IMG/VR virus record: IMGVR_UViG_3300020204_000373 | Location: 1-23,786 of that record | DNA from: a virus | Direction: 5' to 3' (one strand) | DNA: 23,786 bases | Shown: positions 3 to 18,700 of the stretch, piece after piece | Layout of the letters: each line of letters opens with the position of its first letter | How positions within the stretch are numbered: the first letter of the stretch is position 1 | Position numbers and translations under genes: made by a program | The notes under the pieces: generated by a model | Databases searched by the model: none | Told to the model about the DNA's origin: nothing | What the model saw: the letters and a program-made list of their open reading frames with translations, nothing else

Positions 3-191
3 TCTGCGTCTTTAATTCGTGATGAAATTGAAAATACAATCAAAAATTATGAGCCAAGAGTAAATTTAACAGGTGTTGACGTTGCTCCAGACTTTGATAA
101 CAACAATTTTGACGTAACAGTCAGGTATACAATTGTAGGAATTGATGTATTACCACAACAATTGTCATTTGCACTACAGCAAACACGATAA
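3..191 (+). CDS. gp25: Baseplate wedge subunit gp25, C-terminal part (5' truncated by window edge)
   Basis: Only the last 62 codons are present, ending in TAA at 189-191; the start lies upstream of the window. The visible protein begins SASLIRDEIENTIKNYEPRV and ends in LQQTR. A helix with a conserved arginine, followed by 'nyEPRv', then 'gvdV' and a final 'ftVtvrYtIvgid' strand pair, is the usual C-terminal pattern of the GPW/gp25 family (T4 gp25, about 130 residues). That family is related in fold to lysozyme-like sheath-initiator proteins and sits in the inner baseplate, where it helps start sheath assembly. The next gene is gp6, exactly as in T4, which supports the call. The stop codon is directly followed by the ATG of gp6 (TAAATG), so the two genes are probably translationally coupled. 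Identification rests on the C-terminal half and on gene order. Confidence 0.85.
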   Translation, partial: SASLIRDEIENTIKNYEPRVNLTGVDVAPDFDNNNFDVTVRYTIVGIDVLPQQLSFALQQTR

Positions 192-2105
192 ATGGCACTA
201 GTCAACTTTAGCAATCTAGATTTTGATCAAATTAAGAGTTCGCTCAAGGAGTATTTAAGAGCGAACTCTAATTTTACTGATTATGATTTTGAAGGATCTA
301 ACCTTTCATCGATTATTGATGTATTAGCATATAATACTTACATTACTTCGTACAACGCTAACATGGTTAGCAACGAAGTATTTCTTGATAGTGCGACTTT
401 AAGAGAAAATGTAGTATCTCTTGCGAGAGCAATTGGTTATGTATCTAAGTCAAGACGAGCTGCAGAAGCAAGAGTATCATTTTTTGTAGATACTACAAAT
501 TTAGACACAAATCCAATTTCTTTAACTCTACAGAAAGGAATTGTTTGTACAAGTGCGGTTGCATTTGGAAATGAGAGTTATACTTTTACAATTCAGGATT
601 CAATTACCGTTCCTGTTGTGAATGGAATTGCTTCATTTGATAATATTCAAGTTTTTGAAGGAACTTATGTAACTCAAACCTTTACTGTTAATGCAAATGA
701 TCCCAATCAACGTTTCATTCTAACAAATCCAAATATTGATACTAATTTAATTCGTGTAGTCGTAAGAAATACTCAAAATAGCACTGTAACTCGTAAATTT
801 ACGCTTGCAGAAAATTTAATTGATATCAACTCCGAATCTAAAGTCTTTTTCATTCAAGAAATTGAAGATCAAAGATATGAATTAATTTTTGGTGATGATG
901 TTTTTGGTAAAAAACTTGATAATTTGAATTATATTGAAGTTTCTTATGTTATAACAAACGGAGAAGCAGGAAATCGAATTAATGCATTCAATTATAGTGG
1001 AAGATTACTTGATAATAATGGATCTGTCGTTACAGAAGATATTTCTTTAGTTACAACTGATTCTGCATCACAATATGGTGCAGAAATTGAGTCTGTCAAT
1101 TCAATTAAGAATTATGCACCAAGAATATACGCATCTCAAAACCGCGCAGTAACGGCAGCTGACTATGAAGCAATTATTCCATCTCTTTATCCAGAAGCTG
1201 AGTCAATTTCAGTATTTGGCGGCGAAACTTTAAGTCCTCCAAAGTATGGAAAAGTGTTTATTTCAATCAAACCTTATAATGGTTCATTTGTTCCAAATCC
1301 AATCAAAGATAATATCAAAGCAGGCCTAAGAAAATATACAGTTGCAGGAATTGTCCCAGAAATTCTTGATTTGAAATATATCTACGTTGAATATGATTCA
1401 ACAGTTTATTATAACGCAAATACTTCTCCTGGAGCTAGCACGGTTAAATCTATAGCATCATCAAATATTGAAAAATATGCTGACTCAACAGAATTAAATA
1501 AGTATGGTGCAAGATTTAAGTATAGTAAATTTCAAAAAATAATTGATGATAGTCATGCGTCTATTACTTCAAATATTACAAAAATTACAATGCGTCGTGA
1601 TGCAAAACCTGCTTTAAACAAACCTGCAGATTATGAAATTTGTTTTGGTAATCAATTTCATATTAAAGACTTGAAGAATGGTTATAATATCAAGTCTTCT
1701 GGATTTACAATTGATGGTGTATCTGAAACATTATATTTGTCAGATTCTCCAAATGCTGATGAAAAAACTGGAACAATATTTTTCTTCTCACTCAAATCGC
1801 CAACTGAACCAATTATAAAAAGAAGTAATGTTGGTGTAGTTGATTATGAACGTGGAGAAGTTAGATTATCTGCAATTAAATTTACCAATACATCTAAAAC
1901 GGATTCTGGAATCCCAATCATACAAATTTCAGTAAGTCCTCAATCAAATGATGTCATTGGAAAAGAGGATCTTTATTTGCAACTAGATATTAATAACAGT
2001 GTGTTGAACATGCAGTCAGATGACATCTCATCTGGAGCAAATATTTCAGGTTCAACCTATATCGTGACTTCAAGTTACACAAACGGAGCCCTCGTAAGAT
2101 TATAA
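192..2105 (+). CDS. gp6: Baseplate wedge protein gp6
   Basis: A 637-residue protein, close to T4 gp6 (660). T4 gp6 dimers link neighbouring wedges and form the inner ring of the baseplate around the hub. Residues about 1-100 hold the family's N-terminal signature: a short helix, 'dYdFEGSNLSSIIDVLAYNT', then 'NMVSNEVFLDSATLRENVVSLARAIGY'. Residues about 305-360 hold the second conserved block (NYAPRIYASQNRAVTAADYE, then GGE..SPPKYGKVFISIKP), which is the baseplate-J-like core shared with P2 gpJ. Residues about 470-637 are less conserved and beta-rich. The ATG at 192 directly abuts the gp25 stop and begins the conserved N-terminus, so it is taken as the start. No Shine-Dalgarno sequence is visible before it, so coupling to gp25 translation is likely. 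The gene after it starts 3 bases past its stop. Confidence 0.93.
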   Translation: MALVNFSNLDFDQIKSSLKEYLRANSNFTDYDFEGSNLSSIIDVLAYNTYITSYNANMVSNEVFLDSATLRENVVSLARAIGYVSKSRRAAEARVSFFVDTTNLDTNPISLTLQKGIVCTSAVAFGNESYTFTIQDSITVPVVNGIASFDNIQVFEGTYVTQTFTVNANDPNQRFILTNPNIDTNLIRVVVRNTQNSTVTRKFTLAENLIDINSESKVFFIQEIEDQRYELIFGDDVFGKKLDNLNYIEVSYVITNGEAGNRINAFNYSGRLLDNNGSVVTEDISLVTTDSASQYGAEIESVNSIKNYAPRIYASQNRAVTAADYEAIIPSLYPEAESISVFGGETLSPPKYGKVFISIKPYNGSFVPNPIKDNIKAGLRKYTVAGIVPEILDLKYIYVEYDSTVYYNANTSPGASTVKSIASSNIEKYADSTELNKYGARFKYSKFQKIIDDSHASITSNITKITMRRDAKPALNKPADYEICFGNQFHIKDLKNGYNIKSSGFTIDGVSETLYLSDSPNADEKTGTIFFFSLKSPTEPIIKRSNVGVVDYERGEVRLSAIKFTNTSKTDSGIPIIQISVSPQSNDVIGKEDLYLQLDINNSVLNMQSDDISSGANISGSTYIVTSSYTNGALVRL

Positions 2106-2108
2106 GAT

Positions 2109-5100
2109 ATGTCAGAAGTAAGAGTTAAGATTAGTCAAGTTGTTGAAAATCAACTTCCAAGATTTGTAAGAGAAGAATTTCCTCTTGTTTCGGAATTCTT
2201 AAAGCAGTATTATCGCTCCTTTGAATTTCAAAGTGGAGCATCAGATCTTTTACAAAATATTGATCAATATATCAAAGTTGATGAACTGACAAATCTTACA
2301 GAAAGTACTACTCTTACTTCTAACGTTTCGTTTACTGATGATACTATTTTTGTAGACTCTACTTATGGATTTCCAGATTCATATGGTCTCATCAAAATTG
2401 ATAATGAGATTATCACATATACATCCAAAACTTCAACTCAATTTCAAGGTTGTGTAAGAGGGTTTAGTGGCGTAACATCTTATGATGATCCAGCAACTAC
2501 AGATCAACTTGTATTTTCTAACTCGGAAATTGCAGAACATACCTCCGAGTCTGTTGTAACAAATTTAAGTATTCTCTTTTTAAAAGAATTTTTTAATAAG
2601 GTTAAAAAACAAGTTAGCCCAGGATTTGAAAGTAGAGAACTGTATTCTGGTTTAAATGAAAGTCTTTTTGTCAAACAATCAAAAGATTTTTATTCTTCAA
2701 AAGGAACCGATGCATCTTTTAAAATTTTATTTGGAGCTCTTTACGGAAAAAATGTAGAAGTTGTACGCCCAAGAGATTATTTAATTCAACCATCAGATGC
2801 TCAATATAGAATTACAAAAGATTTAGTAGTTGAAGCAATTGAAGGGGATCCTATAGATCTCCAAAATAAAACTCTTTATCAAGATTTTGATGGATTTTTT
2901 AAAAAAGCAGAGGGAACAATATCTAAAGTTGAAAAAATTGTTCGCGGCGAAAAAGAATATTACGTAATAAGTCTTGATTATGATTATGATAAAGATATTA
3001 ATGTTTCCGGAACTGTTTTAGGTGAATTCAGTATTCATCCAACAACGCAAACAGTCACAAACACTGCGATTAATGCAACAACCTTAGATGTTGATTCTAC
3101 AGTAGGATTTCCATCTTCAGGTAAATTGATTGTAGATTTGGCAAATGGAACATCTCTGACTGTAACTTATACAGAAAAATCTTTAAATCAATTTTATGGA
3201 TGTTTTGGAATTGCACAATCCTTTTTAAGTGGCCAAGAGATTAGAATCAATGCGTATTCATACGGTTATAGTGGAATAACAACAACTGATGTTGTAAAAG
3301 TCAGAGTCAGTGGAGTATTATCTGATCTTAATATTTTAGATGAAACTAGTTTTTATCAAAAGAATGATTTAATTAAGATAAAATCTTTGGGCGTAAATTT
3401 AACTGATTATAAATCAAACAATTGGTTTTTCAATATTGCAACACGATATGATGTCAAAACCCTTGAACTTCTTGATATTTCAGATTTTACTTATAAAATA
3501 AATTTATATGATGATCATAATTTTTCTATTGGAGACTCGGTTACATTAATAGGAGTTGATAATGAAGAATTTTTATCCACAATTGTTAATGAAGAAATTA
3601 TTGATACTTCGGAATCTAGTATAGTTTTATTGCAAAATAAAACTTCTTTCAATATCAGTGGTCAAGGGCAATTAGATACATCAAAATTCTACACTATTAG
3701 AAAAAATATTTTAAAAGTAAATACTCCAACATATCCAAGTTTAATAAATTATACTTCAAATGTTCAAAATGTATACACTGATTTAGATGGTTCTCTTTAC
3801 ATTGCATCACCATCTTTACCAAATTATTCAAATCAACCATTAAGCATTAATGATCGTTCGGTTGTTTTTTCTGGCACATTTGCAGGAACAGAATTAAATA
3901 TTGGAAATCATAATTTTTATACTGGTGATATAATTGTTTATAATCCAGAAGATGCAAATAATAAATTAGATTTACTCAAAGGAATTTATTTTGTAAAGAA
4001 AGTTGATGATGTAACAATAAAATTAGCTAAAAGCAAAGAAAGCATTTTTACAAATAATTTTATTTCAATATCTGGAACAGTATCAAATAATAAATTTTAT
4101 TTTTATGATTTTGCTGATAGTGGTTTAAATCTTAATTTAGTCGAAAATCAAAAATTAATCAGAAAACTTTCTAGTCCAGAAAATACGGTTGAAACTTATG
4201 AGACCGTGCCTGGATCTACGGGAATTTTTGTTAATGGTGTAGAACTGTTAAATTACAAATCTGAGGATTTGGTATATTATGGCAAAATTGAAAGTATTGA
4301 CGTTTTAGGGCCTGGTGATGGATATGATATTATAAATCCACCAATCTTAACAATATCTGATGATATTGGAAGTGGAGCATCTGGATATTGCTCTGTAATA
4401 GGATCTCTTGATCGTGTTGAAATAATTGATCCTGGATTTGATTATCTAGAAAATCCAATCATCACAGTTTCTGGTGGTAATGGATCTGGTGCATCAGTCA
4501 AATCAAATTTAATTAATTTTGATCATTTTGTTGAATTCAATTCAACTTCTCCAGCTGGTCATATAAATCTTACCAATAACACAGTAGGATTTTCAAGTTA
4601 TCATAGGTTTAGAAATTCTGAAAAAATAATTTATAATTCTCAGGGTGGAACAAGTATTGGTGGATTGTCAAATGGCGCTTTCTATTATGTTGCGGTTCAA
4701 GATGGATTTACTGTAAAACTTCACAAAACACTTAATGACTCAGTGGTTGGTATTAATACCATTGATTTAACATCTTTTGGGACAGGAATACATAAACTTT
4801 CATCTATAATCAAGAAGAAAAAACTTGGATCTATATCAGTAATTTCACCTGGAGACGGATATCAAAATAAAAAAGTAACGACAACAACTGTAGGAATTAT
4901 TACGTCTTCCAATATAGTCAATATTAAAAACCACGGATTTAAGAGTGGTGAATTAATATCATATCAAACAACAGGATCTGTCATTGGTGGACTGTCTACA
5001 TCATTAAATTATTACGTTACAAAAGTAACTAATGATGAATTTAAATTATCAAAAGTTGGTTTGGGAACTGTGGGAATTGGAACAGAAATTACAGATTTTT

Positions 5101-8100
5101 ATTATAACACAAAACAATATATTGATTTTACTTCCACTGGAAGTGGATCCCATACATTTAATTATCCAGAAATTCAAATCAATATTAAAGGTTCAATAGG
5201 AGTATCAACTCTATCAGGCCAAAACTTTGATGCCATTCTTCAACCAATTTTTAGGGGGTCCATTAACTCTGTTTTTGTTGAGTCGGGTGGAGTAAATTAT
5301 GGATCAGAAGATATTCTGAATTTTGACAGACAACCATCTTTTAATTTAAGTAGTGGCACGGCAGCCGAAGTTATAGTAATAGTTCTCAATGGAAAAATTT
5401 CAGAAGTTCTTGTTGTAAATGAAGGATCTGGTTATAACTCTCCACCAAATCTAACAATTAATGGAACTGGTAGTGGAGCGCGGCTAACTCCTATTATATC
5501 TAATGGATCTTTAGTTGAAGTCAAAGTCATTTCTAGTGGAAATGACTACTCGTCCTCTACTTTTATAACTGTAACCGCTGCTGGATCTGAAGCTAAATTC
5601 AATGCAGAAGTAAAATCTTGGAGAATTAATTTAGTTGAAAGATTAATTAACGCTGGACAAATTCCTAACGATGATGGAATATTAAATAAATCCTTGAATG
5701 AAAATTTTGGACTTAAATATTCGCACGCATATGCGCCAAGAAGTCTTAGATCTTTATTATTATCAACTAAATTTTTAAATGAAAGTGTTACATTTGTTCC
5801 TGATTTACAAATTTTGTCTGGAGTTGAGGTATTATCAAATGCACACTCGTCAATTATCGGATATGCATATGATGGAAATCCAATTTATGGACCTTATGGA
5901 TATAATGACCCAGCTGGTGGAGTTGTAAAATGTTTAGAATCTGGATATTCACTATCAATTAAATCAAATAGACCAAGTACCTCATTATATCCATCTGGAT
6001 TTTTTATTGAGGATTATGAATTTACAAAATCTGGAGATTTAGATGAATACAATGGAAGATTTTGTGTTACGCCAGAATATCCTAACGGAGTTTATGCATA
6101 TTTTTGTACAATAAATTCAGTATCATCCGATACTGGCGGCGTTTTTAACAATTACAGAAGACCTTTATTCCCATATGTGATTGGGCACGAATATAAATCA
6201 AAACCAATTGGATTTAATTTTGAAAAATTATCAAATCAAGATGAAATTGATATTAATGAAACCAAGTGGTTACGTAACACAACTCCGTATGGGTTAACAA
6301 AACAAAGAAATTATTACGATTATATAATCGATCCTAATAAAATTAAAAAACAACTATCGTCAATAAAAAGTACATCAAAAGGAAGCATAGAATCAATAGG
6401 AATTGTTACTGGAGGAACTGGATATCAAGTTGGCGATCAACTTGTTTTCAATAGCAATGGAACCGGTGGTTTTGGACTCAATGCAAGAGTTTCTACTATA
6501 GGTGGAAAACAAATATCACAAGTAAGTGCAGCCAACTCAACAGTATATAATGTTGAGTTTGTTCCTTTATCTGGCGGAAATAATTTTATTGGGTTCGCAA
6601 CACAACCACATGCTTTTTTAAGTAATGAAGTTGTTACAGTTTCTTCATCATTAGATTATCAAAAGTCAGGAAAAATTTCAATTAGATCAAATACTTTAAC
6701 ACTTACTAATGGTATTGGATCAATAAGTGCAACTGGGAATGTAGTATATCTACAAGTAGATGGACTATTAAATTATCCAAATATTAAAGAAAATGACATT
6801 TATCAAATTATAAACGAACAAGTAAAGATTTTAAATATTGACACCTTATCATCTAGAATAAGAGTTTTAAGAAATACTAATGGTGCAGCTGGGGTTAACA
6901 CATATTCTGCGGGTATAGCATTAACTGAAGTAACTAGAAAATTACAACTTAATTTTGGAATTTCTACGTCATATCAATATAATTTAAATAAAGAGTTTTA
7001 TTTTGATCCTAGCGAATCTGTGGGTCTTGGAACAACCTCAGGACCTGGAATTGGATACACATTATCATTCACAAATCCAGGAGCTGGAATTACTCAAATT
7101 AATATTCCAACTAGAGCAGTATATTTACCGGGTCATCAATTAACAACTGGAATACCATTAATTTATAAGTCTAATGGTGGAACTTCAGTGTCAATTTCTA
7201 CTGATGGAATTTCTAATTTTCAACTTGCAGAAAACTCCGTCGTATATGCGGCTAAAATTTCCGATGATTTGATTGGCATATCTACATTTAGAGTTGGACT
7301 TGGAAGCACAGGATCTTTTGTAGGAATTGGCAGCACTGTAACAGATATACTTTACTTTACAAGTATTGGAGTTGGAAATAGTCATAGTTTTAAAACGAGT
7401 TATTCCAATATCTTGAGCGCACAAGTCAGTAGAAATAAAGTTACAGTATCAACAGCATCTTCTCATGGTTTAACAGTAAATGATGATGTTTATGTTAATG
7501 TAAATCCAGGATTAACGACTACAGTGGCAGTAAAGTATGATAATTACAACAGAAGATTAGTTGCTAATCCAAGATCTTTTGTTTCTGGAGATGTCAATAT
7601 TGAAAATGATACGATTACAATACCAAATCACAAATACAAAGTTGGAGAAAAAATTATTCACACTTCCACTGCTCCTTCTGGTGGATTATCAAATGAGTCA
7701 ATTTATTATGCAGTCCCTGTAGATGAAAATAGAATCAAATTATCGGAAACTTATTATAGCGCAGTGCAACCTATTCCAACTGTTGTTGGGATTAGCACAG
7801 CTTCCTCTGGAACAATTTCACAAGTAAATCCTCAAATTACTTTAATTAAAAACTATACTTTAGTATTTGATGTTTCGGATTCTTCTTTGTCATTCTTCAA
7901 TAATGGAGTTCAATATTCAGCATTTGATTTAAACTTCTACACTGATTCTAAATTTAAAAATGTTTTTGATTCAACTTCATCTTCATCTTCATTTGAAGTT
8001 GTAAAAACTGGATCTATTGGTGTAACTTCTACCGCAACGGTTGCGTTAAAAACAACCGATAACGTTCCTTCAATTTTATATTATTCTTTGGTTCCAATAG

Positions 8101-11100
8101 ATTTAAACGCAAACAATAATATTAAGAAAGAAATTATTATTGATGATGAAATATCATCTTACAATCAAGTAGTATTAGAAAATAGTGTATACTCTGGAAA
8201 ATTCAATGTGATTAGAGAATCTGATACTGAATTTTCATATACTATTTTAAAAAATCTCGAAGCTAGTTCTTATACAGACACTAGTGGACTGTTAGAATAT
8301 TATACAAATTCAACTACAGCTTTTGGTAAAATAAATTCCGTTTCAGTTACATCAAAGGGTAGAAACTATCAAAAAACACCAAGAATAACTGAAGTTTCAT
8401 CAACATATGGAACTGGAGCAGTTTTAATTGCATCCAGCTCAGGAATTGGTTCCGTTACTAAAGTTGAAATAGAAGACATTGGATTTGATTATCCTTCAGA
8501 TTTAAGTTTAAGACCTTTTGCTAAACTACCAGAAATATTAAAGATTGAGTCCTTAACGTCATTTAAATCAATAGGTATTGCTTCAGTTGGTAAAAATTAT
8601 ACAATAGCTCCCAATCTGGTAGTAATTGATGGTTTGACTAATAAAGTAATTTCTGACGTTGACTTGTCATACAGCATTGGAGATTCTCAAGTTGCAATTT
8701 TAAAAAATACTAAGGGAATTAATAATGTAACTCCTACCATTATTCCAGTTAATAACATTAATGGAGTGGGAATTAGCACTATAAAATTTATCCAGTCTTC
8801 AAAAGATGTTGTTGTGACTCTCGGAGCAAGTTTTAGCAATGCTTCAGATTTTCCATTTGATATTGGCGATAAAGTTTTAATAGAGAGTATTAGTGTTGGA
8901 GTAGGATCTACAGCAAAAGGATATAACTCAGAAAATTATAATTATACCCTGTTTACTATCGTAAATACTGATCCAAACATTGGTGGAGTTGGAGCTACAG
9001 TTTCATATAATTTATCACAATACATATCTACTGATGAAATCCCAGGAACTTATGATCCTGTTAATTCTTACGGTAGAATTGTTCCTCAAAAATATTTCCC
9101 AATTTTTAATGTAGAACTTCAAAAAAATCAATTTTATGTTGGAGAAAATGTTTATTCAGAAACTTCTTCAGGATTTGTTCTCAGTTGGGAAGAGGAAAGT
9201 AGTTATTTGAAAATAGCCACAGAATTGGACTTCTTGCCAAATCAAATTATATTTGGTGAATCATCTAATTCTCAAGGTAGAATAGAGGAAGTTATTAACT
9301 TTGATTCTGTTTATGATGTAAAATCATCTTCTATTGTTAAAAAAGGATGGAACACTGAAACTGGATTTTTAAATAATGCTTTACAAAGAATGCATGATAA
9401 TGATTATTATCAATATTTTTCATACGCTCTTAAATCCGAAGTTTCTTTAGATACATGGAATGATGTTGTTAGCGATTTAAATCACACATCAGGATTTAAA
9501 AAATTCAGCGATTTAATATTGGAGTCTTCATCAGATTATTCTGGTATTGCAACAAGTCAAGATAATGGAGACTTCCAAGCAATTGTAGATATTGATGCAG
9601 TAATTGATACTAACTGCATTTTTGATTTTGATTTGGCAAAAGAAAACAATATTAATTTAAATAACAAAATTAACTCAAATCAAATAACATTCAACTCAAA
9701 GTTGGTACAAGATTATATTGAATCGATTGGAAATAGAGTTTTGATGATTGATGACTTAAGTCCTCAATTTAATAGCACTGCCAGATTAACAGAATTTAGT
9801 GTTGTTGATACTTTTTCAGTTGACGAATTTGATTTGAATGCATATAGATTTAGAAAATATATTACATTAATAACTGATAGATTTACAATAACTGATCAAC
9901 AAGTATTACTTGTTTCACTTCTTCATGACAGTACAAATGGATATTTAAATCAATATGGACGTGTAGAAACAATACATGATCTTGGATCATTTGATTTTGG
10001 AATTTTTGGCACAGAGGCAAATCTTCTCTTCTATCCAAATTATTTCTTAGTTAATAACTATGATGTAAGTTTAGCATCCTATAATTTAAGAGATATTACA
10101 ACTGGAATTGGAACGGTTTCTCTTGGAAACTCTGTAGTAGTAAAAACATCTACACAAAATATTTCGGTTGGAACCACAACAGCTTCAACCATTGTTGGAA
10201 TTGCATCTACTTATAGAGCATCTAAACTTTTAATTCAAATTGAAGCATCTGACAAATCTTATTTTGAAGTTGATGAAGTTACTGTAATTCATGATGGGAC
10301 ATCAGTATCATTAATAGAATATGGTCAAATGACCGCAAATGATATAACTCCAACTGCTATAAGTGGACTGGGAACTTATAATGCTTATCTTTCTGGATCT
10401 AATTTGAATATTGATATCACTCCAAATTCTGGATTAACAACTAACTACAATATTAATGCATTTATAGTTTCTATTGGAAATACTTCTTCGACGACTACAG
10501 GATCGCAAACTATTACTGACTCCACTATAAAATCTACAATAACGTCAATTGCATCATCGATAGCACCAACAGCTAACATTGTATCACAATATCCAAATAC
10601 TTCGTTTGGTGCATATTATATTGCTGTTGTTGAAGATAAAACAAATAATCAATATCAGGTTTCAGAACTTGTTTCGGTATCAAATAGCGGGAACACCTGT
10701 TTAACTGAATTTGCAGTTCTTGAAACTGGATCTTCTATAGGATCTTTTACAATTGATAATCCATCTGATGTAAATCTATCCTTTACTCCAATTGCAAACG
10801 CAAATGTAGAAGTTAGAGTCTATCAACATGCAATTACAAACATACACGACTCATCACTAACCTCATCTGTTGATTTTATAAATGGATCCATAGAATCTGG
10901 TTATGGAGATTATGAGGGAACGCTAATTGATGTTAAAAAATCTTTCTATTTAACTCATAAAGACAAACCAATTTTTGAAAGATATATTCTTGGTGATGAT
11001 CCAAACATTATTGACATAAGCAATAATAGAATAAAAATTCCAGAGCATTTCTTTGTAACTGGACAAGAATTATCATACGCACACTCTGGAGCTGGCACGA

Positions 11101-14100
11101 CACAAGCAATTGGAATTGCAACTACAACGATAACAGGAGTTGGATCAACTGATAAACTTCCAGCAACTTTATATGTTGTTAAGTCAAGTGATCTACACAT
11201 TCAAGTTGCTGCTTCAGCATCAGAAGCACTTAGAATTCCACCTTCAGTCCTAACACTTTCAAGTGTTGGTATTGGCACTTCTCATGTTTTAAGAGTTAAT
11301 AACGAAAATTCAAAAGTTATCATTGGTCTTGATAATGTAATTCAATCACCAATAGTATCTACTGCAGTGACAACAACACTATCTCTTGGTGTTGAGTTAA
11401 TTGATAATTCAATTCATATTTCTGGTATTACTTCGTTTTTTGCTGGTGACATTGTAAAAATTAATAATGAATTTATGAGGTTGACATCCGTTGGATTTGG
11501 ATCTACTAACAACGTTCTTGTTGACCGAGGATGGATGGGAACAGGACTATCAACACATGCTTCTGGAACTACGGTTAGAAAAGTTTTTGGTAATTTTAAT
11601 ATTGCAAATAATTATGTTTATTTTGCAGAGGCACCATATGGTGAAGTTCCATTCCCAAATCCATCATCGAGACCAGATGAACAAGATTATATTGGACTGT
11701 CAACTAGTACAACATTCAGTGGAAGAGTTTTTCTAAAATCGGGCGATCCAAATTCATTACAAGAATCTTATCATGATAATTATATTTTTGATGATATATC
11801 AGATCTATTTGATGCGACTACAAAAGATTTTACTTTAAGATCCAATTCGCAAAATATCACTGGAATATCAACATCAAATGCTATTGTATTAATTAATTCA
11901 ATATTCCAACAACCAAAGAGATCTGGATTAGTTAATATAATTGGAGACTATACTTTAACAGAAAATTCTGGTATTACCTCAATATCATTTACTGGTACTG
12001 CCTCTTCTACTTCACATGATGTAAACACTGCGTCTATTCCTCGTGGAGGTGTAATTATTTCCGTTGGATCTACTGCTGGATTTGGATATCAACCACTTGT
12101 TTCTGCTGGAGGCACTGCAATTGTATCCATAGCAGGAACAATTTCTTCAATTAGCATTGGAAATAGTGGGTCTGGATATAGAGCAGGGATTCAAACCATT
12201 GTTAATGTTGGCGTCCAAACTTCAAGTGTCGAAACACCAAATATTGAATTTATTGGAACAGCAGCTATTAGTGGTGGACATATTGTGAGTATTGCAATCA
12301 CAAATCCTGGAGTAGGATATACTTCAACCAATCCACCAATTGTTGTTTTTGATGATCCACTTTCTTATTCAAATATTCCATTAATTTACAGTTCTGCATC
12401 ACGAACTGGATTTGGTACAGAGGCAACAGCTGATATTATTGTTGGCCAAGGTTCTAGTGTTATCAATTTTGAAATTAAAAATATTGGTCGTTCATATGGT
12501 CAAGGAGAAATATTAACTGTTGAAGTTGGTGGTTCAACTGGTATACCCACAGATACTTCTTTAACGTTTAAAGAGTTCCAGGTTTCTATTGATAGAACAT
12601 TTAAAGATAGTTTTTCTGGGTGGGTGATTGGAGATTTACAAGTATTTGATACTATTGATTCATTATTTGATGGTGAAAGAAAAGACTTCCCATTAAGTAT
12701 TGATGGTGTTCAAACCACGATTAGATCTAAAAAAGGTTCAAATATTGACATTCAAGCAACTTTATTGATATTTATAAACGACATACTTCAAGTTCCTGGA
12801 ATTGGATATGAATTTAATGGGGGAAGTACAATTATATTCCCAGAGCCTCCTAAGATTGATAGTGTTTCAAAAATTATTTTCTATAAGGGAAATGCTGATG
12901 TTGACGTTGAATTTGTTGATGTTTTGGAAACAGTAAAGATTGGTGACGAATTAACATTGCATTCAGATAATCAAGATTTAACTGAAACTGAAAGACTAGT
13001 TACTGAAATTAAGTCATCTGATGCAGTTCTAACAAGTCTTTATAATGGTGCTGGTCTTTCTTTTGATACGACTCTGCTCAGACCAGTTACATTATGCAGA
13101 CAAACTGAGGACAAAATTATTAATGCTCAAAGAGTGGGAAAAGATAGAGAAAGTTATGAAGCACTGATTCAACCAACAACTAATATTATTCAAAACGTTG
13201 GTGTAACTTCTGATGTGATATTTGTCGAAAGTGTAAAAACTTTCTTTGATAATTCAAGCGAATATACATCTTCAGATCAACAACCAAAAAGAATTATTAT
13301 CACATCACAAGATACTATAGTAGCAGCAGCTGCAACAGCTGTTGTTTCAGTTGCTGGAACAATTAGTTCTATTGTAATCAGTGACGGTGGTAGTGGTTAT
13401 GTTTCTGCACCATCAGTAACAATCGAGTCCCCTGTTGGTTTAGGATCGACTCAGAGAGCATCTGCAGTCTCTTCCTTGACTGGAGGGTCTGTTACAACAA
13501 TTTCAATCACATCGCCAGGAACTGGATATACATCATCAAATCCACCAGTTGTTCTTATCGAATCTCCAAGTTCAAAAACAGAAAAAATTACGAAAGTAAA
13601 TTACAGTGGAGACTTTGGAGTTATCACTGGTATTTCTACAACTTCTGTAGGTGTAGCATCTACAGGACTTGTTTTAGATTTGTTTGTTCCAACAAACTCA
13701 TTCTTAAGAAACACCTCTGTAAATAACGTTGGAGTTGCAACAACAGGAATTAGTGGTATTCAAACTGGTTATTACTTCGTCGTGTTTAATTCTAATGTTG
13801 GATCTGCAGTTACTTCTATTCGTCAAGATGGAACAGTAGTTGGATATGGAACTCAGTTTATCGACAACATCTATGAGGCTGCTGCAGTTTCAATTGCTCA
13901 AACAAGTGTTCTGGGGATTGGAATTACTTATGTGACAAAAGTTACTGTAAGTTTGCAAAACTACAATGGTATAACTGGAATTGGATTTAGCAATTTCTAT
14001 GGTGAATTTAGTTGGGGTAGGATTACAAATCTTACTAGATCTAATCCAGAATCGTTTACAATTTATAATACAGGATTATCTGGAATTACAACTTCACCGG

Positions 14101-14147
14101 TTGTTCAAAGAATACAACCACTCAAGTCTCGCAATTACACTACATAA
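2109..14147 (+). CDS. Giant modular baseplate wedge/virion structural protein at the gp7 position, with YHYH-like domain
   Basis: A 4012-residue protein lying between gp6 and gp8, the place of T4 gene 7 (gp7, 1032 residues, the wedge initiator). Equivalence to gp7 is inferred from gene order and from N- and C-terminal wording known in marine T4-like phages, not from clear similarity to T4 gp7. Map by residue: 1-60 helical start (QLPRFVREEFPLVSEFLKQYY); 70-125 'DST.GFP..IdnEiItYts' module, with a second at 325-370; 190-245 conserved block with SKGTDASFKILFGALYG and YLIQPSDAQY; 590-3065 several copies of an 'nHgf.tGe.i.Y..ggLs...YYv' module; about 735-3805 some 15 'sGxGY' strand motifs; 1225-1365 a YHYH-like domain; 2415-2480 conserved HDNDYYQYFSYALKS block; 3228-3290 and 3513-3600 'lFDg..kdF.L' modules; 3600-3735 block with KDRESYEALIQP; C-terminus with YGEFSWGRI and TSPVVQRIQPLKSRNYT. 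No signal peptide or membrane segment is seen. It is uninterrupted, with no frameshift. Baseplate location is likely; the role of the repeated modules (surface binding, spacer or decoration) is unknown. Confidence 0.85.
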   Translation: MSEVRVKISQVVENQLPRFVREEFPLVSEFLKQYYRSFEFQSGASDLLQNIDQYIKVDELTNLTESTTLTSNVSFTDDTIFVDSTYGFPDSYGLIKIDNEIITYTSKTSTQFQGCVRGFSGVTSYDDPATTDQLVFSNSEIAEHTSESVVTNLSILFLKEFFNKVKKQVSPGFESRELYSGLNESLFVKQSKDFYSSKGTDASFKILFGALYGKNVEVVRPRDYLIQPSDAQYRITKDLVVEAIEGDPIDLQNKTLYQDFDGFFKKAEGTISKVEKIVRGEKEYYVISLDYDYDKDINVSGTVLGEFSIHPTTQTVTNTAINATTLDVDSTVGFPSSGKLIVDLANGTSLTVTYTEKSLNQFYGCFGIAQSFLSGQEIRINAYSYGYSGITTTDVVKVRVSGVLSDLNILDETSFYQKNDLIKIKSLGVNLTDYKSNNWFFNIATRYDVKTLELLDISDFTYKINLYDDHNFSIGDSVTLIGVDNEEFLSTIVNEEIIDTSESSIVLLQNKTSFNISGQGQLDTSKFYTIRKNILKVNTPTYPSLINYTSNVQNVYTDLDGSLYIASPSLPNYSNQPLSINDRSVVFSGTFAGTELNIGNHNFYTGDIIVYNPEDANNKLDLLKGIYFVKKVDDVTIKLAKSKESIFTNNFISISGTVSNNKFYFYDFADSGLNLNLVENQKLIRKLSSPENTVETYETVPGSTGIFVNGVELLNYKSEDLVYYGKIESIDVLGPGDGYDIINPPILTISDDIGSGASGYCSVIGSLDRVEIIDPGFDYLENPIITVSGGNGSGASVKSNLINFDHFVEFNSTSPAGHINLTNNTVGFSSYHRFRNSEKIIYNSQGGTSIGGLSNGAFYYVAVQDGFTVKLHKTLNDSVVGINTIDLTSFGTGIHKLSSIIKKKKLGSISVISPGDGYQNKKVTTTTVGIITSSNIVNIKNHGFKSGELISYQTTGSVIGGLSTSLNYYVTKVTNDEFKLSKVGLGTVGIGTEITDFYYNTKQYIDFTSTGSGSHTFNYPEIQINIKGSIGVSTLSGQNFDAILQPIFRGSINSVFVESGGVNYGSEDILNFDRQPSFNLSSGTAAEVIVIVLNGKISEVLVVNEGSGYNSPPNLTINGTGSGARLTPIISNGSLVEVKVISSGNDYSSSTFITVTAAGSEAKFNAEVKSWRINLVERLINAGQIPNDDGILNKSLNENFGLKYSHAYAPRSLRSLLLSTKFLNESVTFVPDLQILSGVEVLSNAHSSIIGYAYDGNPIYGPYGYNDPAGGVVKCLESGYSLSIKSNRPSTSLYPSGFFIEDYEFTKSGDLDEYNGRFCVTPEYPNGVYAYFCTINSVSSDTGGVFNNYRRPLFPYVIGHEYKSKPIGFNFEKLSNQDEIDINETKWLRNTTPYGLTKQRNYYDYIIDPNKIKKQLSSIKSTSKGSIESIGIVTGGTGYQVGDQLVFNSNGTGGFGLNARVSTIGGKQISQVSAANSTVYNVEFVPLSGGNNFIGFATQPHAFLSNEVVTVSSSLDYQKSGKISIRSNTLTLTNGIGSISATGNVVYLQVDGLLNYPNIKENDIYQIINEQVKILNIDTLSSRIRVLRNTNGAAGVNTYSAGIALTEVTRKLQLNFGISTSYQYNLNKEFYFDPSESVGLGTTSGPGIGYTLSFTNPGAGITQINIPTRAVYLPGHQLTTGIPLIYKSNGGTSVSISTDGISNFQLAENSVVYAAKISDDLIGISTFRVGLGSTGSFVGIGSTVTDILYFTSIGVGNSHSFKTSYSNILSAQVSRNKVTVSTASSHGLTVNDDVYVNVNPGLTTTVAVKYDNYNRRLVANPRSFVSGDVNIENDTITIPNHKYKVGEKIIHTSTAPSGGLSNESIYYAVPVDENRIKLSETYYSAVQPIPTVVGISTASSGTISQVNPQITLIKNYTLVFDVSDSSLSFFNNGVQYSAFDLNFYTDSKFKNVFDSTSSSSSFEVVKTGSIGVTSTATVALKTTDNVPSILYYSLVPIDLNANNNIKKEIIIDDEISSYNQVVLENSVYSGKFNVIRESDTEFSYTILKNLEASSYTDTSGLLEYYTNSTTAFGKINSVSVTSKGRNYQKTPRITEVSSTYGTGAVLIASSSGIGSVTKVEIEDIGFDYPSDLSLRPFAKLPEILKIESLTSFKSIGIASVGKNYTIAPNLVVIDGLTNKVISDVDLSYSIGDSQVAILKNTKGINNVTPTIIPVNNINGVGISTIKFIQSSKDVVVTLGASFSNASDFPFDIGDKVLIESISVGVGSTAKGYNSENYNYTLFTIVNTDPNIGGVGATVSYNLSQYISTDEIPGTYDPVNSYGRIVPQKYFPIFNVELQKNQFYVGENVYSETSSGFVLSWEEESSYLKIATELDFLPNQIIFGESSNSQGRIEEVINFDSVYDVKSSSIVKKGWNTETGFLNNALQRMHDNDYYQYFSYALKSEVSLDTWNDVVSDLNHTSGFKKFSDLILESSSDYSGIATSQDNGDFQAIVDIDAVIDTNCIFDFDLAKENNINLNNKINSNQITFNSKLVQDYIESIGNRVLMIDDLSPQFNSTARLTEFSVVDTFSVDEFDLNAYRFRKYITLITDRFTITDQQVLLVSLLHDSTNGYLNQYGRVETIHDLGSFDFGIFGTEANLLFYPNYFLVNNYDVSLASYNLRDITTGIGTVSLGNSVVVKTSTQNISVGTTTASTIVGIASTYRASKLLIQIEASDKSYFEVDEVTVIHDGTSVSLIEYGQMTANDITPTAISGLGTYNAYLSGSNLNIDITPNSGLTTNYNINAFIVSIGNTSSTTTGSQTITDSTIKSTITSIASSIAPTANIVSQYPNTSFGAYYIAVVEDKTNNQYQVSELVSVSNSGNTCLTEFAVLETGSSIGSFTIDNPSDVNLSFTPIANANVEVRVYQHAITNIHDSSLTSSVDFINGSIESGYGDYEGTLIDVKKSFYLTHKDKPIFERYILGDDPNIIDISNNRIKIPEHFFVTGQELSYAHSGAGTTQAIGIATTTITGVGSTDKLPATLYVVKSSDLHIQVAASASEALRIPPSVLTLSSVGIGTSHVLRVNNENSKVIIGLDNVIQSPIVSTAVTTTLSLGVELIDNSIHISGITSFFAGDIVKINNEFMRLTSVGFGSTNNVLVDRGWMGTGLSTHASGTTVRKVFGNFNIANNYVYFAEAPYGEVPFPNPSSRPDEQDYIGLSTSTTFSGRVFLKSGDPNSLQESYHDNYIFDDISDLFDATTKDFTLRSNSQNITGISTSNAIVLINSIFQQPKRSGLVNIIGDYTLTENSGITSISFTGTASSTSHDVNTASIPRGGVIISVGSTAGFGYQPLVSAGGTAIVSIAGTISSISIGNSGSGYRAGIQTIVNVGVQTSSVETPNIEFIGTAAISGGHIVSIAITNPGVGYTSTNPPIVVFDDPLSYSNIPLIYSSASRTGFGTEATADIIVGQGSSVINFEIKNIGRSYGQGEILTVEVGGSTGIPTDTSLTFKEFQVSIDRTFKDSFSGWVIGDLQVFDTIDSLFDGERKDFPLSIDGVQTTIRSKKGSNIDIQATLLIFINDILQVPGIGYEFNGGSTIIFPEPPKIDSVSKIIFYKGNADVDVEFVDVLETVKIGDELTLHSDNQDLTETERLVTEIKSSDAVLTSLYNGAGLSFDTTLLRPVTLCRQTEDKIINAQRVGKDRESYEALIQPTTNIIQNVGVTSDVIFVESVKTFFDNSSEYTSSDQQPKRIIITSQDTIVAAAATAVVSVAGTISSIVISDGGSGYVSAPSVTIESPVGLGSTQRASAVSSLTGGSVTTISITSPGTGYTSSNPPVVLIESPSSKTEKITKVNYSGDFGVITGISTTSVGVASTGLVLDLFVPTNSFLRNTSVNNVGVATTGISGIQTGYYFVVFNSNVGSAVTSIRQDGTVVGYGTQFIDNIYEAAAVSIAQTSVLGIGITYVTKVTVSLQNYNGITGIGFSNFYGEFSWGRITNLTRSNPESFTIYNTGLSGITTSPVVQRIQPLKSRNYTT
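3876..11303 (+). repeat. Dispersed protein-level repeat, 'nHgf.tGe.i.Y..ggLs...YYv..v....ikLs' module, at least six copies
   Basis: Diverged copies are visible in the translation of the giant gene at residues about 590-650, 821-897, 934-1017, 1664-1763, 1830-1907 and 2973-3065. Each runs: a hydrophobic strand, a small polar residue with H and a 'tGe/tGd' turn, an 'i.Y' strand, usually GGLS or a variant, a 'YYV/YfV/YAV' strand, and a hydrophobic strand ending in K/QL or V. Several are followed by a glycine-serine-rich tail (GIGST/GVGST) and then 'f.stG.GsHtF/SF'. The copies are too diverged to show as DNA repeats, so the duplications look old. The fold is unknown to me; an all-beta domain is inferred. 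Confidence 0.7.
4300..13570 (+). repeat. Dispersed 'sGxGY' beta-strand repeat in the giant protein, about 15 copies, often paired
   Basis: The unit reads roughly 'I.sI.I...GsGY..pP.vtI...gsGA.a.a....G.i..v.I..pG.gY'. Copies by approximate residue: 735 and 775; 914; 1058, 1106 and 1142; 1434; 2083, 2124 and 2161; 3352, 3400 and 3459; 3760 and 3803. The two best-preserved pairs (3335-3418 and 3743-3820) share AGTISSI at the start and GYTS.NPP near the end, which suggests a relatively recent duplication. Similar motifs occur once in gp8 and twice in the DUF4815 protein further downstream. The glycine-tyrosine turn and alternating hydrophobic pattern suggest stacked beta strands; that is inference. 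Confidence 0.75.
5781..6203 (+). other. YHYH-like domain within the giant gp7-position protein
   Basis: Residues about 1225-1365 of the giant protein. The first hallmark is H1246 followed by GYAYDGNPIYGPYGY at 1251-1265. The second is FCVTPEYPNG, then YAYF at 1329-1332, and finally PYVIGHEY at 1355-1362. This order matches the YHYH family found in secreted and surface proteins of marine bacteria and in marine phage structural proteins. The name-giving YHYH tetrapeptide is replaced here by YAYF, so the central histidine pattern is lost. Three cysteines (1275, 1319, 1333) fall in or near the domain of an otherwise cysteine-poor protein. The biochemical function of the family is not established, as far as I know. 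Confidence 0.8.
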
Positions 14148-14150
14148 ATA
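14143..14150 (+). promoter_or_regulatory. Candidate T4-type late promoter element CATAAATA before gene 8
   Basis: CATAAATA matches the T4 late promoter core TATAAATA at 7 of 8 positions. It overlaps the TAA stop of the giant gene and lies 17 bases before the gene 8 ATG, so a transcript would start with a very short leader. T4-like marine phages are known to use late elements of this kind, read by a sigma-like gp55 factor. It is the only structural junction here with more than 6 bases between genes, which adds some weight. In AT-rich DNA a 7-of-8 match can arise by chance, so this stays tentative. Confidence 0.4.
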
Positions 14151-14167: not shown

Positions 14168-15721
14168 ATGGCTGCAATTATAACTGACCAATTAAGAATT
14201 CTGAATGCTAAGAATTTTGTCTCTGTGGCAACTTCTTCTTCAAATTCTTACTATGTGTTTGTTGGTTTACCCAATGCAACTGATTATAGTTCAACTTGGA
14301 ATACAAATCCACCAGCACCTAAAGATAATTTTGATCAAGAGAATGATTATTGGGATACAACAATAGCATTGAAAAAATTAAATTCCAGTGATGTTCAACA
14401 AGTAATTAGAAAAATTACTTGGGAATCTGGAACAACATATGATATGTATCGTCATGATATTAGTGTCACTAACATAGCAAAACCATCTGGTGCAGTAAGT
14501 TTGTATTCTGCAAATTATTACGTTGTAAATAGCGATTATAAAGTCTATATTTGTCTCCAAAATGGAACTGATCCAGAAAATCCAGAAGGAAAACCATCTT
14601 TAGACGAACCAACATTTACAGATTTAGAGCCAAGATCAGCAGGAAACAGTGGCGATGGATATATTTGGAAATATCTATACACAATCAAACCAAGTAATAT
14701 TGTAAAGTTTGATTCTATTAATTTTATGCCAGTTCCTAATGACTGGTATACAAATACAGCAGATGCTGCAGTTAGAAATAATGCAGCAACAAGTGGCCAA
14801 TTAAAAATTGCTACAGTTATCAGTCGCGGAGTTGGGATTGGAACTGCCAATAAAACATATACTAAAGTTCCCATTAAAGGTGATGGATCTGGAGCTGAAG
14901 CAACCATTGTTATTAACAATGATTCAAAGGTTCAGTCAATTACAATATCCAAAGGTGGATCAGGATATACATATGGAACAGTTGATTTGGTTGCCGGAAA
15001 TGTTCCAACAGCAACAACAGATCCAGTCTTTAATGTCATCATTCCACCTAAAGGCGGGCATGGCGCTGATATCTATAGAGAATTGGGAGCTGACAATGTT
15101 TTAATATATTCCCGTATAGAAAATGACAATCAAAATCCAGACTTTATCACTGGTAATGAAATTGCAAGAGTTGGTATAATTGAAAATCCTCAAGCATATG
15201 CCTCAACATCTTTACTAGATTTGCCAAAGGCAAGTGCTGTTTATGCTTTGAAATTAACTGGCATTGGATATACCTCAGCTACTTTTACTGCTGACAGTAG
15301 ATTTACTCAAACTGTCGGTGTTGGTTCCACCGCCGTAGGTAGAGTTATTTCTTACGATCAATCAACAGGTGTTCTTAAATATTGGCAAGATAGAAGTCTT
15401 GTTGGATTCAATACAGACGGAACACAAAATACATCACCAACTTATGGATTTAAATTAAATAGGTTCACATCAAATCCTGGAGTTGGTGGAACAATATTTA
15501 TTTCTGGTGGAAGTGTAAGTCTTTCTATCGATACTAACTTTACTGGTTTTTCAACCACAATAAATAGTAAGACATATTATTTTGGACAATCTTTTACAGG
15601 TGGAATTTCTGATCCAGAAGTTAAAAAGTATTCTGGAAATACAATTTATGTTGACAATAGACCATCTATTACAAGATCGTCTAATCAAAAAGAAGATATC
15701 AAAGTAATTTTGCAATTCTAA
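14168..15721 (+). CDS. gp8: Baseplate wedge protein gp8, enlarged
   Basis: A 517-residue protein; T4 gp8 is 334. In T4, gp8 forms a dimer in the outer wedge and contacts gp7, gp10 and gp6. Recognisable gp8 blocks are: an N-terminal part with NSYYVFVGLP and PPAPKDN; IRKITWESGTTYDMYRHDI; GDGYIWKYLYTIKP at 162-175 (T4 GDGYVWEYLFEIPP); GNEIARVGIIENP at about 329-341 (T4 GNKGFRQISIITNP); and the C-terminus SGNTIYVDNRPSITRSSNQK then EDIKVILQF (T4 SGEMIYMENRPPI, then EEINILFTF). The extra length lies in two places: about 215-300, which carries a GGSGY module like those of the preceding gene, and about 345-480, with 'GSTAVGRVISYDQSTGVLKYWQDR'-type wording. The ATG at 14168 begins the conserved N-terminus; the sequence before it is A-rich with no clear Shine-Dalgarno. 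A late promoter candidate lies just upstream. Confidence 0.92.
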   Translation: MAAIITDQLRILNAKNFVSVATSSSNSYYVFVGLPNATDYSSTWNTNPPAPKDNFDQENDYWDTTIALKKLNSSDVQQVIRKITWESGTTYDMYRHDISVTNIAKPSGAVSLYSANYYVVNSDYKVYICLQNGTDPENPEGKPSLDEPTFTDLEPRSAGNSGDGYIWKYLYTIKPSNIVKFDSINFMPVPNDWYTNTADAAVRNNAATSGQLKIATVISRGVGIGTANKTYTKVPIKGDGSGAEATIVINNDSKVQSITISKGGSGYTYGTVDLVAGNVPTATTDPVFNVIIPPKGGHGADIYRELGADNVLIYSRIENDNQNPDFITGNEIARVGIIENPQAYASTSLLDLPKASAVYALKLTGIGYTSATFTADSRFTQTVGVGSTAVGRVISYDQSTGVLKYWQDRSLVGFNTDGTQNTSPTYGFKLNRFTSNPGVGGTIFISGGSVSLSIDTNFTGFSTTINSKTYYFGQSFTGGISDPEVKKYSGNTIYVDNRPSITRSSNQKEDIKVILQF

Positions 15722-15727
15722 CGAGTC

Positions 15728-18700
15728 ATGCCCCAGCAAACTAATCTCAATGTTTCTCCATATTTTGATGACTTTAATGCAGATAAAAACTATTATAGAG
15801 TCTTATTTAAACCAGGATATCCTGTTCAAGCTAGAGAATTAACAACATTACAGTCAATTTTACAAAATCAAATTGAACAATTTGGAAATTTTACTTTTAA
15901 AGAAGGGTCTATTGTAATACCGGGGCAAATCAATTATAATACCAGATTTAATGCGGTAAAAATTGAAAATTCGTATTTGGGTGTAAATGTTGGATTATAT
16001 GTAAATGACTTAGTTGGAAAAACAATTAAAGGAGATACATCAAAAGTTGAAGCTAAAATTGCATATGTTTTGAGTGAAAATGAAGATGATAATGAATATA
16101 CAACTTTATACGTATCATATTTGGCTTCTGGAGTAAATAATGACCAGTCAACTTTTTCTGATCAAGAAAAATTAGTTCTTGAAGAATCGTTCACTAAAAA
16201 TAATATTATTATCCAAGCAGGAGAAGGATTTGCAAATACAACAATAGATTCAACAGCAGTGGGATCTGCTGTTATTTTATCTTCTGGAGTATATTTTTTA
16301 AGAGGAATTTTTGTAAATGTTAAGGATCAAATTTTAGTTCTTGATCCATATTCAAATAAATCATCATACAAAGTTGGATTTGATGTTATTGAAGAAATTG
16401 TAACATCAGATGATGATGATTCATTAAATGATAATGCACAAGGATTCTCAAATTATGCAGCTCCGGGTGCTGATAGATTTAAAATTAAAGCAATTTTAAG
16501 TAAAAGAGATATTACCACAACAAATACTGAAAATTTTGTAGGTCTTTTAGAAATTAGAAATGGAGAGTTAATTAAAAATGTTGCTACAAATCCAACTTTA
16601 AATGTTTTAGCAACAGAATTAGCTAGAAGAACTTCAGAAGAATCTGGTGATTATTATGTAAGACCACTTGATGTTTCATCTAAAGAAACATTGAACAACA
16701 GATTAGGAAATAATGGTATTTTTAATCAAAATCAATTAACTTACAATAATAACACTCCAAGAGAAGATTTAGGAACATATAGAATTTCTGCAGGAAAAGC
16801 ATATGTTCAAGGATTTGAAGTTGAAAATATTTCTGCAACATATGTAGATTTTGAAAAACCAAGAACAACCAATACAAATACGGATGTAAATCTTACATAT
16901 TTAACTGGACCAACTTTTACTTTAAACAGAGTTGCAGGATCTCCAAACTTAAATCTTGCAAGTCCTTTTATCGTAAGTTTAAGAAACTCTAGAGTAGGAA
17001 TTTCTTCAACAACAGGAGCGGGAAAAGAAATTGGTCTGGCAAGAGTTTATGATTTTGCACTGGAGTCTGGATCTTACAATACTTTAAATCAAAATTTAAA
17101 CCAATGGGACCTTGCGTTATTTGATATTGATACTTATACAGAAATTTCTTTGAATCAAAATACTACGCTGACAGTTCCAACTCATATTCAAGGAAAATCT
17201 AGTGGGGCCACCGCACATTTAAGATATGATGTTAATAACGTAGGAATTTTAACTGCATATGGAGTTCAGGGATCATTTGTTTCTGGTGAAAAATTCATCT
17301 TTAATGGTGTAGAAACAACAAGTAGAGTATCAACTGCCGTCACTGCATATACTACAAAAGATGTTTTATCAGTCTCCCAATATGTGACTGGAGTTGGAGC
17401 AACTATTTTTACGGCAGATATTATTCTATCAACTCAGTATTTTGTTGGATTATCTTCAATTACTGCAAGATCTGCAACTGGAATTAGTAGTATTTCTATT
17501 GCATCAGACACTAATTTTATATTTACAAATAATGTAAAAGTAGGTGGTTTAGTAGCATTTTCAATATCTGGATCAACAGTTCCAACATACTGTAGTGTAC
17601 AATCAGTTTCTGATAGATCAATTACTGTAACTGGTGTAACCACCGTAACTGGAATATGTGAAGGAACAGCACCTGCAACGGCTCAGACATTATCCGATTT
17701 AAAAATCTTAGGATCAAATTTTCAATCATCTGCAGATAATACTTTATACACATTCTTCAAAAAACCATTTGTAAAGTCTGTAGATCTTACTGATTCTTCT
17801 TTAACCATCAAAAAAGAATTTGCAGTTACTATTACAAGTGAACAATCTAATACTTTGACTTCTTCATCAAATGAAGTTTTCTTACCGTTTGATGAAGAAA
17901 GATATGCTTTAGTTCGTTCTGACGGATCTTTTGAATCTCTAAGTTCTGATAAACTTGTATTTGATGAGCAAGCAAAACAACTCACAATTTACGGTTTAGG
18001 TGCAAATGACGCTGGTTCAAGATTAATTGCTACTTTAAGAAAGTCAAATGTAACTTCAAAAGTTAAGAATAAAAATAGAATTGTATCCTTAATTGTGGAC
18101 AAATCAAAATACAGTTCTTCTGGTATTGGATCCACAACAATCAATGATGGATTAACTTATGGTTCTTATGCGTATGGAACTAGAGTTCAAGATAAAGAAA
18201 TTTCATTAAACAGAGCCGATGTTACAAAAATATATGGTATTTTTGAATCGAGCGGAACTTCTGCTGCTGCGTTACCAAAAATAACTTTTAGTAGTTTGGA
18301 CGGCCCAACAAATAAAACTACAGATTTATTGATTGGTGAGCAATTTATTGGTCAAACTAGTGGAGCAGTTGGTGTATATGTTGCAAAAAATAATGATTTT
18401 CAAATTGATTTTATCTATCTCAATGATATTGCATTTTTAGAAACAGAAAATGTTAAGTTCAGTGATTCTGGAATAACGGCCGTTATTTCGGTAGTTTCAC
18501 TTTCTGATAAAGATGTAACTGACAGTTATGCTTTAGATGCTGCTAGAAAAGATACTATTCTTGACTATGCAAAAATAGTCAGAAAATCAAATGTAAAGGA
18601 ACCAGTAAGACAACTCAAAATTATTTTTGAAGCGGCAAGTTTCTTATCTTCTGATTCTGGTGATATTACCACTGTAAATTCTTATAGTCAATTTGATTAT

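Follow-up and report, generated by a model that had tools for sequence, protein, structure and literature searches.

The 4012-residue protein encoded between genes 6 and 8 of this viral contig is, judging from its relatives and its place in the genome, the gp7 ortholog of a Kyanoviridae-type T4-like cyanophage, in which about 3,800 extra residues of beta-rich modules are carried by a small core like that of T4 gp7.

Gene 7 and its neighbors

The window (the whole stretch of DNA analyzed) is a 23,786-base viral contig, and the genes and gp7 parts located on it below are on its + strand. Along it lie the end of the gp25 gene, gp6, the gene for the 4012-residue protein, gp8, a gene for a 2476-aa protein of the DUF4815/VrlC type, a short gene (77 aa) and the first part of a neck gene. 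The giant gp7 (baseplate wedge initiator/subunit; 2109..14147) is encoded in a single open frame that runs from an ATG at 2109 to a stop at 14147, has a mass of ~434 kDa and matches phrog_2885 ("baseplate wedge subunit") with E = 0. Upstream are the C-terminal part of gp25, the sheath initiator of the wedge (3..191; PF04965, phrog_261), and gp6 (192..2105; phrog_219, E 1.3e-194; PF21379), and downstream are gp8 (14168..15721; phrog_438, E 1.8e-162; PF09215) and the VrlC-type wedge protein (DUF4815, 2476 aa; 15728..23158; PF16075, phrog_358; this slot is annotated VrlC in phiM7). In the order gp25-gp6-gp7-gp8, the last three genes follow the T4 arrangement, and gp25 precedes them, a position that it also has in other Kyanoviridae. 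In T4, gp6 is the partner of gp7 in the wedge heterotrimer. At 14143-14150 an ATAAATA late-promoter-like motif shares bases with the gp7 stop codon and lies 25 bases ahead of gp8.

The 4012-residue gene is not an assembly artifact, because its frame is uninterrupted and the same intact gene is present in two independent contigs (L004 and L005) in the same frame, at full length and with 77-83% identity; a partial copy (L009) is nearly identical to it across residues 1-1980. An earlier reading of the letters and open reading frames (the sequence-only reading) had described one uninterrupted gene of 4012 residues at 2109-14147, which is exact, and had placed it in the slot of the 1032-residue T4 gp7, which agrees with the gp6 and gp8 genes on either side.

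Identification as gp7

Single-protein phmmer searches of the PDB with the giant gp7 found nothing, and a family profile was required. A profile made from 34 cyanophage N-termini without a T4 member (A2), when run against all 177,635 distinct PDB sequences, ranks T4-type gp7 first and second (1.1e-5 and 2.6e-5), and the next matches stand at 0.04. With hhalign, T4 gp7 residues 725-841 align to residues 185-343 of the window protein (N-core, below) with P 97.3 and E 2.2e-11; as controls, the best of 20 column-shuffled T4 profiles gave 0.075 and the reversed profile 0.31. Residues 166-218 also match Escherichia phage gp7s as single sequences (43-47% identity, E ~0.01). For the second core piece (C-core, below) hhalign against T4 gave E 1.1e-4 (shuffled best 0.028), plain HMMER found nothing in the PDB, and a C-terminal profile likewise found nothing there; the C-core is weakly linked to T4, by one weak profile-profile match and by bridging families. 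The HMMs used for the core spacings given below had members from both T4 and cyanophages in their training set, and the scores that they give to these are therefore not independent, but the hhalign, PDB and S-SZBM1 results are.

None of the Pfam T4 gp7 domains (Gp7_helical, domains V and VI) matches the window protein above cut-off, while T4 gp7 itself does match, and with PF23786 ("Baseplate_wedge") the window protein stays below cut-off (E 4e-4) where Melnitz-3 and phiM7 pass. We read the missing domains as divergence, the Pfam domains marking the T4 branch and not defining the family. Residues 1-345 gave a poor AlphaFold model (mean pLDDT 64.6, pTM 0.37, TM to T4 only 0.14), as may be expected for helices that pack only with gp6. 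Among 350,542 chains, Foldseek matches this low-confidence core model best to 5iv5_BJ of the T4 baseplate (E 1.2e-3), whose length of 1004 residues suggests that it is gp7.

Cyanomyophages and pelagimyophages have been stated to be without gp7 and to use VrlC instead (PMC7029224), and Sullivan (2010) put gp7 only in the non-cyanophage core and remarked on divergence (PMC3037559). Replacement of gp7 by VrlC would also fit the lack of a Pfam T4 gp7 domain above cut-off in the window. However, gp7 is the sole significant family in the profile searches, and the window also has the VrlC-type gene, which lies two genes downstream of gp7 and beside gp8 (15728-23158, 2476 aa), so gp7 and VrlC coexist there, in contradiction to the replacement statement (PMC7029224). 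That cyanophages have no gp7 is scarcely credible, and the gp7 identity proposed in the sequence-only reading is upheld by the PDB profile search, hhalign and the slot.

Lengths and relatives of the giant gp7

A tblastn search with a 2800-aa query matched 470 phage records, nearly all of them from Synechococcus or Prochlorococcus phages, and in 93 of these the match spans 80% or more of the query. The similarity to PHROG 2885 extends along the whole length of the protein (E = 0), and the annotation "gp7, baseplate wedge initiator/subunit" is carried by the proteins of Bellamy, S-SM2, P-SSM2 and others. Proteins in the same slot have lengths of 503 (Yut2), 631 (OC), 881 (OLIVR6), 896 (Melnitz-3), 1006 (phiM7) and 1032 (T4) residues at the small end and of 3515 (S-RSM4), 4012 (window), 4067 (Bellamy), 5195 (P-SSM2), 5893 (IMG/VR locus L064), 6376 (Syn33) and 6619 (S-SZBM1) residues at the large end; relatives annotated as baseplate wedge initiator/subunit span 3515-6619 residues. 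The 6619-aa protein, S-SZBM1_208, was detected by mass spectrometry of CsCl-purified virions with 71 peptides and 13.5% coverage (PMC9146016), and S-CREM2 virions have a wedge protein of 1937 aa (5,814 bases), detected with 91 peptides, that adjoins the inner wedge genes as here (PMC10665884). Giant gp7 proteins, already known in cyanophages, are therefore the norm in the Kyanoviridae, and the implication of an unusual size in the sequence-only reading does not hold.

The Kyanoviridae gp7s of PHROG 2885 (Synechococcus phage Bellamy gp111, P-SSM2 gp7 and S-SM2 gp7) occupy the same slot, are similar over the full length and fall in the same length class, and they differ from the window protein only by sequence divergence (Bellamy gp111 has 44% identity over residues 1-2776) and by indels at a few sites. 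S-SZBM1_208 has both core pieces and the same slot after gp25-gp6, but it is longer, with ~600 aa at growth site A (below), and three extra genes lie between it and gp8. T4 gp7 (PDB 5hx2, 5iv5) has the same core pieces in the same order, between the gp6 and gp8 genes, but its expansion is elsewhere, in an N-terminal extension of ~640 residues ahead of the core that has no match in the window gp7; it has 62 aa between the core pieces versus 2169 in the window and a tail of 118 aa versus 1524. The small gp7s of Stenotrophomonas phage Yut2, Ochrobactrum phage OC, Melnitz-3 and phiM7 share the core order and have far less added material.

The core pieces

Because same-slot homologs range from 503 to 6619 aa, gp7 can be described as a small scaffold to which much has been added, at sites that can be defined; both core pieces are found in the same order throughout this range, and the difference in length lies in the spacer and the tail. 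Alignment shows the scaffold to be residues 1-60 plus 145-245 (first piece) and 2405-2488 (second piece), with the additions placed at three sites, ~80 aa within the first piece, ~2160 between the pieces and ~1520 after the second. Residues 1-60 (2109..2288), an N-terminal helix-turn-helix that should form the contribution of gp7 to the core bundle of the wedge, align with the N-terminus of the short gp7s and with T4 gp7 from about residue 644, and helices are predicted with low confidence at residues 8-40. The N-core (residues 145-245, 2541..2843), with its DFYSSKGTDASFKILFGALYGKNV motif, is homologous to T4 gp7 from about 705-780 according to hhalign and the PDB profile. The C-core (residues 2405-2488, 9321..9572; DNDYYQYFSYALKSEVSLDTWNDVVSDLNHTSGFKKF) is by hhalign the apparent counterpart of T4 gp7 at about 860-895; its motif is DNDYYQYFSYALKS...H..GF, T4 has RSYYVMKIKSNLPSSRWKSDVIRFVHPVGFGF in the matching place, and the piece is present in Yut2, OC, phiM7, OLIVR6 and Melnitz-3.

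Four conserved blocks had been named in the sequence-only reading. Two of them, residues 190-245 and 2415-2480, stand, at the 97th and 91st conservation percentiles, whereas residues 3600-3735 (48th) and the last ~170 residues (53rd) are of only average conservation and for that reason were rejected as conserved scaffold; residues 3301-3375, 76-125 and 1251-1350, all within modules, are more conserved than either. When close relatives are compared, the core is only slightly more conserved than the modules, so that only distant comparison defines a "core". The earlier picture of a wedge scaffold with inserted modules is nevertheless largely right, in view of the range of homolog lengths and the definable sites of addition.

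Sites of growth

Growth site A (residues 61-144, 2289..2540) is a single beta module within the first core piece, with strands predicted at residues 66-124; it measures ~80 aa in the window and ~600 in Syn33 and S-SZBM1, and it is absent from Yut2, OC and phiM7. Growth site B (residues 246-2404, 2844..9320) holds the beta-rich modules between the core pieces, and the N-core to C-core spacing, derived from HMM positions, is 47-62 aa in T4-type gp7s, 76 in OC, 239 in Yut2, 369 in Melnitz-3, 403 in OLIVR6 and 782 in phiM7, and among the giants 1551 in S-RSM4, 2169 in the window, 2134-2346 in most relatives, 2702 in Syn33 and 2768 in S-SZBM1. Growth site C (residues 2489-4012, 9573..14144) is the C-terminal tail, whose length after the C-core varies from 1 aa (phiM7) to 3237 aa (L064). 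Equal length and module content in all homologs would have refuted the history of insertion proposed in the sequence-only reading, but the homologs range from 503 to 6619 aa, and the proposal is not refuted by this comparison.

The first 2400 residues are almost free of indels across relatives of 36-83% identity, and large indels occur at few sites, namely about residue 1650, residues 2557-2940, 3408, 3480 and 3776-3811, and the C-terminal end. The hot spot at about residue 1650 (7056..7061) has +60 to +150 aa in L054, L058, L064 and L068, the main hot spot at about residue 3408 (12330..12341) has ~+176 to +480 aa and several hundred more in P-SSM2, and that at residues 3776-3811 (13434..13541) has +79 to +180 aa. 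Comparison of the protein with itself in pieces gave 29 off-diagonal matches (best E 2.8e-11) versus 0-3 in 20 shuffles (best 0.001), which confirms the earlier claim that the beta-rich modules are repeated; BLAST self-comparison as one piece gave the diagonal only.

A tail that can be a separate gene

Three groups of relatives have a gene of its own for the tail: L051/L082 (77% DNA identity to each other); L074, L075 and L077 with related contigs; and L057/L080, two members of one population. The split in L051/L082 (with an ATGA overlap) and in L074/L075/L077 (with a TAATG overlap) corresponds to about residues 2909-2943 of the window protein (10833..10937), and in L057/L080 it is closer to the C-core, at about residues 2469-2525 (9513..9683). 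A tree of the N-core, which took in two of the three groups (L051/L082 and L074/L075/L077), keeps these two apart in all 200 bootstrap trees and nests L051/L082 within a set of fused forms, which makes at least that split derived. The separate tail genes on the tree and in relatives argue strongly that the tail is a structural unit in its own right.

Between the two gp7 halves of L057 (10430-10660) and L080 (17776-18006) there are an inverted repeat, AACCGAC...GTCGGcGGTT, an ATAAATA late-promoter-like motif and an ORF of ~50 codons that resembles the missing linker. In L059 (1870-10729) gp7 is in two frames with a gap of ~2 kb between them. Extra structural genes lie between gp7 and gp8 in L098:4260-9232 (S-SZBM1), L011:19014-23515, L032:22785-26798 and L086:14718-17443. 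One of these extra genes, S-SZBM1_207, carries a YHYH-like module (41% identity) that in the window sits inside gp7, which indicates that modules move between gp7 and neighboring genes.

Possible roles of the added modules

The YHYH-like domain of the window protein (residues 1190-1345, 5676..6143; PF14240, E 2.2e-24) might suggest an enzyme, since YHYH domains have been predicted to be Zn hydrolases (PMC7824862), and with the Pfam match this would make the giant gp7 a metal-dependent hydrolase that acts on the cell envelope. The match in the window protein, however, covers only profile positions 90-183 of 193, and the HYH motif (the proposed Zn site) is missing in 27 of the 28 giant gp7s, including that of the window; the histidine before DGxPIYG and that aspartate are kept. 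The sole HYH, at residue 1311 of L054, lies elsewhere in the domain. With the motif lost the hydrolase prediction (PMC7824862) is doubtful here, an enzyme role of this domain is unlikely, and an envelope-cutting gp7 seems to us very improbable. YHYH domains have also been listed as carbohydrate-binding or recognition candidates in marine myophages (PMC7029224), which bears on the suggestion in the sequence-only reading that the modules put extra host-contact surfaces on the baseplate; as receptor- or polysaccharide-binding surfaces they would give gp7 a direct part in adsorption. The Bacillus phage Vp4 wedge protein, which has carbohydrate-binding modules, does bind cells (PMC11406892), and gp7 diverges faster than its neighbors (83% identity among close relatives versus 92% for gp6 and gp8), but its changes are spread evenly, the VrlC-type protein diverges about as much in L005 and L028, and no hypervariable segment is found among close relatives (the lowest 80-residue stretch has 62% at 83% mean identity). 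A model of the tail (1088 aa, pLDDT 73) is a string of beta domains in which no lectin, CBM or fiber-tip fold was found; fold search with this C-terminal model gave no match below 0.001 and no whole-chain relative, only local beta-barrel modules. One tail module of ~100 residues shows local similarity to parts of two tailspikes, 4y9v and 9k4a (prob ~1, E 0.2-0.6), but it matches the F1-ATPase barrel too and so is no pointer to receptor binding. With no hypervariable segment, HYH motif or lectin/fiber-tip fold found, we consider host contact by the modules unlikely.

A passive ruler or filler, which would determine how wide and how stiff the baseplate is and bind nothing, would agree with the nearly fixed length of residues 1-2400 in relatives of 36-83% identity and with repeats that are divergent copies of a few module types, but tail and site B lengths that shift by hundreds of residues between genera, and a tail that can be a separate gene, do not suit a fixed ruler, and we rate it as somewhat less likely even than host contact. 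Two described systems point to docking. In XM1 gp17 (242 aa), the gp7 ortholog, extra segments at residues 80-106 (inside domain I) and 201-242 (C-terminal end) hold the tail spikes (PMC10457771), and these are similar in place to window sites A and C; in AlgoCIS, the gp7-like part of Alg12 has been named a hot spot of re-engineering and binds different fibers (PMC8894135). Both are, by their published descriptions, gp7-type scaffolds whose extra segments carry spikes or fibers, and judged by them the modules would most likely act as an outer framework to which gp8, the VrlC-type protein and fibers dock. None of the papers searched gave a structure of a cyanophage wedge of this type. Overall, the best explanation, and in our estimation a probable one, is a gp7 with an outsized peripheral arm that serves more likely for docking and as framework than as a receptor-binding tip. 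More tentatively, the arm could be a multi-partner docking frame in which one polypeptide replaces the separate peripheral wedge proteins of T4 (gp9, gp10, gp11 and the fiber sockets) and which can be divided into separate genes at module borders without loss of function.

Proposed arrangement and meaning

By analogy with T4, XM1 and AlgoCIS, the core of the giant gp7 would pack with two gp6 chains as core bundle and trifurcation and so keep gp25, the sheath initiator, in place. The added beta modules, in six copies per baseplate, would form the stable outer part of the wedge, where gp8, the VrlC-type protein and the fibers would be spaced and docked by them; the assignment of particular partners to particular modules is less certain. 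On adsorption, the opening movement would be transmitted through the modules to the core within.

In the sea, the cyanophage baseplate is one of the most abundant contractile machines, and the usual label for one of its largest proteins is just "baseplate wedge initiator" or "structural protein". What is new here is a corrected core map (residues 1-245 plus 2405-2488), three sites of growth and natural split points. The mapped core, sites and splits are ready construct borders for structural work, and they make the role of the extra 3,800 residues directly testable.
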